A DNA stretch of 64,000 bases, taken from NCBI RefSeq assembly GCF_022834715.1, contig NZ_BQKC01000001.1, positions 1,586,501-1,650,500 on the forward strand, in the 5' to 3' direction. The notes beneath the pieces were generated by a model that saw nothing but the letters and a program-made list of their open reading frames with translations, was not told the DNA's origin and made no database searches. Below, piece after piece: positions 15,259-60,339 of this stretch. Numbering within the stretch: position 1 is the first letter of the stretch; each line of letters begins with the position of its first letter. The stretch comes from Granulimonas faecalis. Lineage in GTDB: Bacteria; Actinomycetota; Coriobacteriia; Coriobacteriales; Atopobiaceae. The position numbers and the translations under genes were made by a program.

Positions 15259-15297
15259 AATATAAGAAGCGACAGATGGGCCAGACGCCCCTGTCGC
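15259..15297. repeat. Solo REP of the RAYT-associated family
   Basis: AATATAAGAAG then GCGACAG-n15-CTGTCGC. It matches the hairpins flanking the transposase at 34.6-35.4 kb, with a compensating change (GCGACAG/CTGTCGC for GTGACAG/CTGTCAC) that keeps the stem paired. It lies in the 557-base gap between the two giant adhesins. Confidence 0.75.
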
Positions 15298-15438: not shown

Positions 15439-15470
15439 TGGGACAAAAGTGTCCGGGTGTTGGGACAGGC
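15439..15470. repeat. GGGACA-type repeat, copy 1
   Basis: GGGACAAAAGTGTCC followed by GGGTGTTGGGACAGG. GGACA can pair with TGTCC, and TGTCC with the next GGACA, so two alternative hairpins exist. The same element occurs at 49971-50004 (inverted) and 60309-60339. Confidence 0.75.
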
Positions 15471-27821: not shown

Positions 27822-27848
27822 GGACGGCGGCCCGTCATTTCAACGATG

Positions 27849-27888
27849 AAATATAAGAAGTGACAGATGGGCCAGGCGCCCCTGTCAC
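27849..27888. repeat. Solo REP of the RAYT-associated family
   Basis: AAATATAAGAAG then GTGACAG-n15-CTGTCAC, almost identical to the copies bounding the transposase element. It lies between hypA and the gltB promoter region. Confidence 0.8.
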
Positions 27889-34581: not shown

Positions 34582-34614
34582 GTGACAGCGGTGCCTGGCC
34601 CATCTGTCACTTCG
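34582..34614. repeat. REP hairpin at the 3' end of the RAYT gene
   Basis: GTGACAG-n15-CTGTCAC with the AAG edge. The TGA stop of the transposase lies inside the CTGTCAC arm (34607-34609). It is the inverted mate of the copy at 35533-35563. Confidence 0.85.
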
Positions 34615-35359
34615 CATATTTTACTCTTGATATTATTCCACGGCCCACGCCCGTGAGCCGCTCTATCTGACGTACGGAGAGCCCCACCGCACGCATGCGG
34701 GCGATACGGTCGTCGCGCTTGGCCCGCGGCAACGCCCCGACCTCGTGCGGCGCGACGTCGAGTACCCCCTCGGCGACCTCTCGGGCATCCTCCTCCGAGA
34801 AACGGCCGCCCCGGCACTCGAGACCCATGTGCGGCGAGACGTCCACGTACCGGTGGAACCGCACGTACTCCTCGTCGCTGTCGAACAGATGCGCCACGGG
34901 CCCGGGCTCGCCGCCATAGAAACTGTCAAGGATGGCGTCGTAGCTGCTCCAAGGGTAGGAGCAGCCCTCGGTCATACCGGCCTTGACCGGGTTGCGGTGG
35001 ATGTAGCGAACGACATCGAGGAGGTGCGTCTCGCTCTCGACCGGTTCGCTGCCGAACCTGCCCTGGAACAGGCTCCCCACCCTCCCGTGGCGCCTGTTGA
35101 AAGACTCGGCATACGCACCGCACACCTCGCGGACCGTATCGCTCAGGCAGTCGAAAGGAACGGACAGCAGGAGGTGCACGTGGTTGTCCATGAGGCACCA
35201 GGCGAGGAGCTCGCCTCCCTGCCTGGTCAGCTCCCGTCGCAGAAGCGCCATAAAGAGCGTGCGGTCCCCGTCGTCCTCGAAGACAATCTGCCGACCGTTC
35301 CCGCGGGCCACCACGTGATACAGGTCGGAAGCGGACGGCCTTCTCGGCCCTCTCGGCAT
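34607..35359 (-). CDS. REP-associated tyrosine transposase (RAYT, Y1/HUH family)
   Basis: A 250-residue single-strand DNA transposase-like protein of the IS200/Y1 superfamily. The HUH motif is DNHVHLLL (His60, His62). The catalytic Tyr is probably Tyr83 in GAYAESFNRRHGRVGSLFQG, whose FNRR...GxLFQxRF pattern marks RAYTs. The C-terminal 40 residues add a helix-turn-helix (MRAVGLSVRQIERLTGVGRG). ATG 35359 is chosen because the family N-terminus PRxPR...YHVVARGNGRQ follows. RAYTs are domesticated transposases thought to spread REP hairpins; here REPs flank the gene as inverted repeats, and the stop codon lies inside one. Confidence 0.9.
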   Translation of the reverse strand: MPRGPRRPSASDLYHVVARGNGRQIVFEDDGDRTLFMALLRRELTRQGGELLAWCLMDNHVHLLLSVPFDCLSDTVREVCGAYAESFNRRHGRVGSLFQGRFGSEPVESETHLLDVVRYIHRNPVKAGMTEGCSYPWSSYDAILDSFYGGEPGPVAHLFDSDEEYVRFHRYVDVSPHMGLECRGGRFSEEDAREVAEGVLDVAPHEVGALPRAKRDDRIARMRAVGLSVRQIERLTGVGRGIISRVKYAK

Positions 35360-35532
35360 CGGCCCACCCCCCGGTCCCCCTGCAGGCCGCGCGGCACGGC
35401 CCGCCGTGGGGACACGGTAACCCCTGCGAGATCGAACGGCCCCGATATGGCATAAAGGGGCGAAAAAGAAGGGGACATCCATAAAGATGGATGCCCCCAT
35501 GGACGGATATCCCATAAATCTATCAATAGAGC

Positions 35533-35563
35533 AAGTGACAGATGGACCAGGCACCACTGTCAC
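35533..35563. repeat. REP hairpin upstream of the RAYT gene
   Basis: AAGTGACAGATGG then CTGTCAC; stem GTGACAG/CTGTCAC extended by TGG/CCA. It is the inverted mate of 34582-34614. Just inside it (about 35471-35498) is another hairpin, CATCCAT-n4-ATGGATG. Confidence 0.85.
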
Positions 35564-60285: not shown

Positions 60286-60339
60286 GTGGGACAGAAGTGC
60301 CCGACCATTGGGACAGAAGTGTCCGGGTGATGGGACAGG
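60285..60339. repeat. GGGACA-type repeat, copy 3 (doubled)
   Basis: Two head-to-tail units: GGGACAGAAGTGCCCGACC and then GGGACAGAAGTGTCC-GGGTGATGGGACAGG, the second almost identical to the copies at 15.4 and 50.0 kb. It ends 4 bases before the stop codon of the ABC exporter gene. Confidence 0.75.

Follow-up and report, generated by a model that had tools for sequence, protein, structure and literature searches.

A RAYT gene framed by its own dispersed hairpin repeats in Granulimonas faecalis: a probable REPtron, with similarly framed relatives across Coriobacteriia

Pairs of a RAYT gene and its REP sequences serve as a model of how a transposase can settle as a gene of the host even as its short target goes on spreading. 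The locus considered here lies in a 64-kb window (the whole stretch of DNA that was analysed, 64,000 nt) and raises the question whether a RAYT-like gene bounded by inverted hairpins forms such a pair. In the part of the literature covered, neither REPs nor RAYTs were found to have been reported from Coriobacteriia or, more broadly, from Actinobacteria. The question extends to the type of protein involved. HTH-bearing proteins with NHVH and Y---NP motifs constitute subclass 2.1 (Quentin et al., 2018; PMC6006769), which is the same as Bertels group 1 as cited through that source. This is the largest RAYT subclass and was reported without REPs, neither automatic nor manual searches having yielded REP-like sequences (PMC6006769), a result that had suggested a different function.

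Three matches to GTGACAG-n15-CTGTCAC, hereafter the REP1 hairpin, lie in the window (Table 1), and none in the dinucleotide-shuffled window. Two of them bound the RAYT gene in inverted orientation, as described in the initial annotation, with an inverted-repeat score of 29 against a shuffled maximum of 13. The TGA stop of the gene was also correctly placed within the downstream hairpin, and the AATATAAGAAG-like flank noted beside the hairpins corresponds, on the opposite strand, to a conserved 3' tail, TTCGCMTATTKC-n5-TTGATG. The most plausible start of the gene is the ATG at 35359 (250 aa) rather than a GTG within the hairpin, and homologues begin at this ATG. Compensating changes had been proposed for both solo copies; the copy at 15.3 kb does carry a double change in the stem, from T-A to C-G, whereas the term is loose for the copy at 27.9 kb, in which the outer arms are unchanged and extra inner pairs are present.

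Table 1. Features of the RAYT locus and of the repeats in the 64-kb window (positions are those of the window).
Feature	Position	Strand	Details
RAYT/TnpAREP-like HUH-Tyr nuclease gene	34607..35359	-	250 aa plus stop; DNHVH, Y119, C-terminal HTH
REP1 hairpin, downstream of RAYT gene	34582..34610	+	holds RAYT stop (34607-34609, - strand)
REP1 3' tail of downstream copy	34611..34633	+	TTCGCATATTTTACTCTTGATAT; directed at RAYT gene
REP1 hairpin, upstream of RAYT gene	35535..35563	-	inverted relative to downstream copy
REP1 3' tail of upstream copy	35512..35534	-	TTGCTCTATTGATAGATTTATGG; directed at RAYT gene
Solo REP1, intergenic	27860..27888	-	upstream gene end 25 bp away; tail ~27837-27859
Diverged solo REP1	15269..15297	-	compensated stem pair (GCGACAG...CTGTCGC); by alignment and fold
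REP2 unit, repeat of second RAYT	15439..15457	+	TGGGACAAAAGTGTCCGGG; G000:C1:1601939-1601957
REP2 tandem pair	60287..60327	+	2 units 22 bp apart; G000:C1:1646787-1646805 and 1646809-1646827

The encoded protein matches Pfam Y1_Tnp (E 4.8e-12) and NCBIfam REP_Tyr_transpos (E 6.8e-18), the latter with 65 bits, below the cut-off of 80, as expected for a divergent subclass. It contains the HUH motif DNHVH (H60, H62) and the catalytic Y119 within YIHRNP, the Y---NP signature. Across 43 aligned sequences (the window RAYT and 42 relatives), D58-N59-H60, H62, Y119, H121 and N123 are invariant and P124 nearly so, and a C-terminal LSxRQIERLTGIGRGxI (HTH) segment is strongly conserved. The AlphaFold2 model (mean pLDDT 91.7) has C-terminal helices at residues 212-224, 229-236 and 240-245. 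Its top Foldseek match is 4er8 (E 2e-8; TM 0.74 when normalised by target length), a structure of E. coli TnpAREP, the REP-associated tyrosine transposase, in complex with a REP hairpin; the same entry is also the top profile match of the protein (E 1.1e-4). By domain make-up and described features, among them an HTH extension after the core and a length in the class of about 240 aa (here 250), the protein belongs to subclass 2.1/group 1, an assignment made from published feature descriptions. The initial annotation of a RAYT-REP system is retained, with the qualification that the protein is of the HTH-bearing subclass and not of the classical GTAG-REP group. The gene is present in a single copy, and its only paralogue in the host genome is 43% identical. 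The same genome also encodes, on contig 2, a typical IS200-type TnpA (PF01797, E 1.1e-40; G000:C2:74450-74803, locus L016), which is unrelated to the REP systems described here.

Beyond the window, the host genome (2.23 Mb in two contigs, contig 1 being 2.08 Mb) contains 37 REP1 copies with perfect arms and 49 that differ from the consensus at no more than three positions, far more than the four places initially noted, while a reversed-pattern control had no match in it. Alignment of 50 copies defines an oriented unit of about 50-54 nt, consisting of a 29-nt hairpin, GTGACAG-M-GGTGCCTGGCCCAT-CTGTCAC, and the tail given above. The 5' edge is sharp, the 3' signal fades past about position 50-54, and the sequence outside both edges is unrelated among copies. 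The unit is preceded by RY, with Y at -1 in 49/50 copies and R at -2 in 45/50. In nearly all 50 copies the foot is GTGA(CAG), the canonical GT[AG]G foot being absent, and no T-run stands behind the stem. REP1 is mostly single, and the majority of copies have no inverted partner nearby. Sixteen copies share the same 29 nt although their flanks are unrelated, a sign of recent spread, and truncated tandem copies abut the 5' foot at several sites.

The gene is bounded by inverted REPs that also occur dispersed in intergenic DNA, and the locus is very probably a REPtron, in which a single-copy, domesticated, IS200-like RAYT is accompanied by its own inverted hairpins, spread as about 50 units of ~50 nt. 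A defined unit, dispersed between genes, restricted to the RAYT-bearing genome and obeying a rule of one repeat per RAYT, can be read directly from the sequence. It is conceivable, though unlikely, that REP1 is passive and no longer mobile, and that the RAYT is a DNA-binding regulator or a genome-maintenance nuclease that uses it: RAYTs are single-copy and domesticated according to the literature (PMC6006769), an HTH fits a regulator, and recent insertion was not observed in the single genome of the genus, but the 16 identical copies amid unrelated flanks and the truncated partial copies in tandem argue for mobility. The framing repeats could also be ordinary TIRs of a small insertion sequence, with the solos as single-ended debris of a decayed IS. 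This reading, already disfavoured, has a slim chance; it accounts for the two copies inverted at the gene ends, and RAYT-like genes with such 'TIRs' have been described (Di Nocera et al., 2013; PMC3733652), yet the genome has no second identical copy of the RAYT, about 50 solos retain the full hairpin and tail with equal edges, most of them lack an inverted partner, and the end is itself a hairpin, apparently covarying in relatives.

The dispersed units of the REPtron lie between genes in nearly every case. Although the surveyed loci are about 79% coding and about 21% non-coding, 47/50 copies are intergenic and 3/50 run into the end of a gene by 4 bp (genes were called with a simple in-house codon-based finder trained on the window). 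The upstream neighbour is in sense toward REP1 in 37/50 cases, divergent (promoter) positions account for 2/50, and the median distance past the stop codon is about 28 bp. This excess just after stop codons may reflect either target choice or the survival of the least harmful insertions. A strong terminator-type hairpin follows 17/34 sense-downstream copies within 80 nt, against 25/105 control gene ends, a difference that is a lead only, as test and control windows were placed differently. In three cases (L012, L042 and the window RAYT), the foot GTGACAG supplies the TGA stop of the upstream frame.

The REP1 29-mer is absent from all other genomes of the family that were searched (139), RAYT-bearing or not. 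Of the two findings named at the outset as refuting the reading, a hairpin confined to four places and a hairpin in RAYT-free genomes, neither was made. RAYT homologues are encoded in 82 of the 139, the nearest being at most 53% identical over the full length among the matches listed, and those examined have repeats other than REP1; the sample holds one genome per species, and the genus is represented by the host genome alone. That the hairpins are host-selected RNA signals (terminators or 3' stabilisers), associated with the RAYT only incidentally, is highly improbable despite their sense position 3' of genes and the terminator-like hairpins often next to them, as relatives would share host signals and yet have no REP1, copies frame the RAYT gene itself, all five RAYT-repeat pairs considered are dispersed in the RAYT's own genome, and the stem is not followed by a T-run. 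A secondary role of REP1 at RNA ends may nonetheless exist.

The paralogue provides an independent instance in the same genome. This second RAYT (G000:C1:2023676-2024428), 43% identical to the first, is bounded by perfectly inverted 52-bp arms of another repeat, REP2, TGGGACAAAAGTGYCCG, which forms direct pairs 22 bp apart and has 138 matches in the host genome. Each RAYT is framed by its own repeat family, so that the host genome has two RAYT-repeat pairs. REP2 lies within 400 bp of 21/50 REP1 copies, and in 19 of these it is downstream and in the same orientation. A pair of REP1 copies at 1985907 and 1988732 was considered as a further REPtron and rejected, since the interval contains apparently ordinary host genes and REP2 and no RAYT.

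Related RAYT genes were collected at 107 loci, comprising the family-genome relatives and records of Olsenella, Collinsella, Tractidigestivibacter, Gordonibacter, Paraeggerthella and others; two loci are from Bacillota, and some genomes are present in both collections. Flanking inverted repeats exceed shuffles at 90/107 loci, which does not match the published absence of REP-like sequences in subclass 2.1, and 17/107 have no significant inverted repeat. The case is noteworthy for Coriobacteriia, as had been anticipated, but it is not an isolated one, related genes across the class being likewise framed. After removal of near-identical proteins, 79 non-redundant loci remained. In these, the longest perfect stem within an arm averages 7.6 against 3.9 in shuffled sequences, at least six stem pairs are found at 61/79 loci against 4.5 expected, and GGGAC[AG]G occurs at 58/79 against 0.8 expected by shuffles, nearly always in a constant orientation relative to the gene. 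GGGGWSAS is present at 23/79 loci; the window REP1 carries GGTGCCTGG instead. Protein identity and repeat similarity are correlated (Mantel rho 0.24; 0/2000 permutations). In one subgroup, eight 33-nt hairpins retain pairing through two-sided changes at 7/14 stem positions, a count that illustrates covariation and does not prove it, as the hairpins were chosen as palindromes. Most of the framing repeats are, as predicted from these stems, hairpins that differ between RAYTs and conserve a GGGAC[AG]G core.

All five RAYT-repeat pairs examined are dispersed in the genome that carries the RAYT. For the TGATTC family, TGATTCAAAAGGGGACAGACCCCTTTTGAATCA, the number of sites per strand ranges from 0 up to about 70 in a genus of 31 genomes. 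The median number of matches on both strands is 76.5 in the six carriers of the cognate RAYT and 5 in the other genomes (Mann-Whitney p 0.003, kinship among genomes being ignored). The correspondence is imperfect: one genome (G111) has the RAYT and few copies, and two (G086 and G100) lack a close intact RAYT yet show 23-28 sites per strand. In G086 the RAYT (G086:C2:478937-479678) is broken into two frames while about 23 TGATTC-type sites remain, possibly a case of repeats outliving their enzyme. Of two other families, the G079 family has 22 matches in G079 and 2 in a single further genome of the five compared, and the G128 family has 53 matches in G128 and 0 in 17 congeners. Both consist mostly of inverted pairs and are thus REPIN-like.

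The nearest precedent is the TIRYT/TIRtron. The 'TIRYT' genes of Di Nocera et al. (2013; PMC3733652) are flanked by TIRs, of which some share GGGGWSAS and some recur in the genome, and 20/26 examples were later classed in subclass 2.1 (PMC6006769). In both cases a RAYT-like gene stands between inverted repeats that lack a GTAG tag, and TIRYT repeats often share GGGGWSAS and include some moderately abundant families, dimers or clusters. TIRtron repeats, however, were described from other phyla and mostly as plain TIRs, few of them repeated; the present repeats are hairpins whose stems are specific to the lineage and whose tail is defined, they occur at nearly all Coriobacteriia RAYT loci, and 5/5 families tested are dispersed. 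Many 'TIRs' of this kind are, on this sequence evidence, conserved-core, private-stem hairpins that form dispersed families. With the subclass as surveyed the window protein shares NHVH, Y---NP, a single copy, about 250 aa and the C-terminal HTH, but the survey found no REPs and the genes here are framed by hairpin REP families. The classical RAYT/TnpAREP-REP(IN) systems (E. coli TnpAREP, 4er8; Pseudomonas REPINs) have the same HUH/Tyr core and fold, gene-framing inverted hairpins, dispersed intergenic copies and one RAYT per repeat family; they differ in having the GT[AG]G foot and no C-terminal HTH, and their GTAG-contact residues are not conserved here. In contrast to inverted REPINs, REP1 copies are mostly solitary and REP2 is arranged in direct tandem pairs, although inverted pairs are seen in the G079 and G128 families. 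IS200/IS605 elements with TnpA (IS608, ISDra2) share the fold of the nuclease and the presence of subterminal hairpins with the present system; in both, the unit is oriented, with a target at its left flank and a right end that is fixed. The present system has no multi-copy autonomous element, no tnpB and Y---NP rather than Y---Q. By analogy, the RY left flank and the fixed 3' end near TTGATG resemble the left-flank target and right end of IS200-type elements.

In the REPtron, the RAYT appears to have spread, or may still spread, non-autonomous REP1 units. Homology to TnpAREP and to the TnpA of IS608 and ISDra2 suggests that it would bind REP1 as a single-stranded hairpin, and that the HUH-bound metal and Tyr119 would cut at the unit edges and rejoin them. 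Insertion of the unit would take place 3' of an RY target, probably where single strands are exposed, and the surviving copies seem to lie for the most part past stop codons and ahead of terminators, positions at which an insertion presumably does the least damage. The HTH probably serves as an additional DNA-binding module. The RAYT and the stem of its hairpin seem to drift together, leaving each RAYT lineage with a stem of its own, built around a GGGAC[AG]G-like core that the lineages share. Whether group-1/subclass-2.1 RAYTs are active REP mobilisers throughout Coriobacteriia, with private stems and insertion 3' of RY past stop codons, is evenly poised; if they are, the reading of a private stem around the shared GGGAC[AG]G core by each RAYT would amount to lock-and-key co-evolution of RAYT and stem.

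A subclass from which REPs seemed missing is here paired with hairpin repeats at nearly every Coriobacteriia locus examined, and a single 2.2-Mb genome holds two independent pairs. The 79 non-redundant loci constitute natural RAYT-repeat pairs, which makes RAYT specificity and the role of the HTH directly testable by stem swaps, and in common gut bacteria the REP families provide markers for telling strains apart as well as 3'-end elements. A 480-kb stretch of contig 1 (G000:C1:824865-1304499) is devoid of REP1 (simulated chance 0.0002) and contains one REP2 match (1014433) among the matches listed. This stretch is perhaps the terminus region or acquired DNA; the replication origin was looked for at the ends of contig 1 and was not found there. 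At four loci (L010, L014, L032 and L039), the REP1 tail is followed by a similar extra hairpin, GGCATGGGTYTT...AAACCCATGCC, which may represent a third family of repeats or a common type of terminator.
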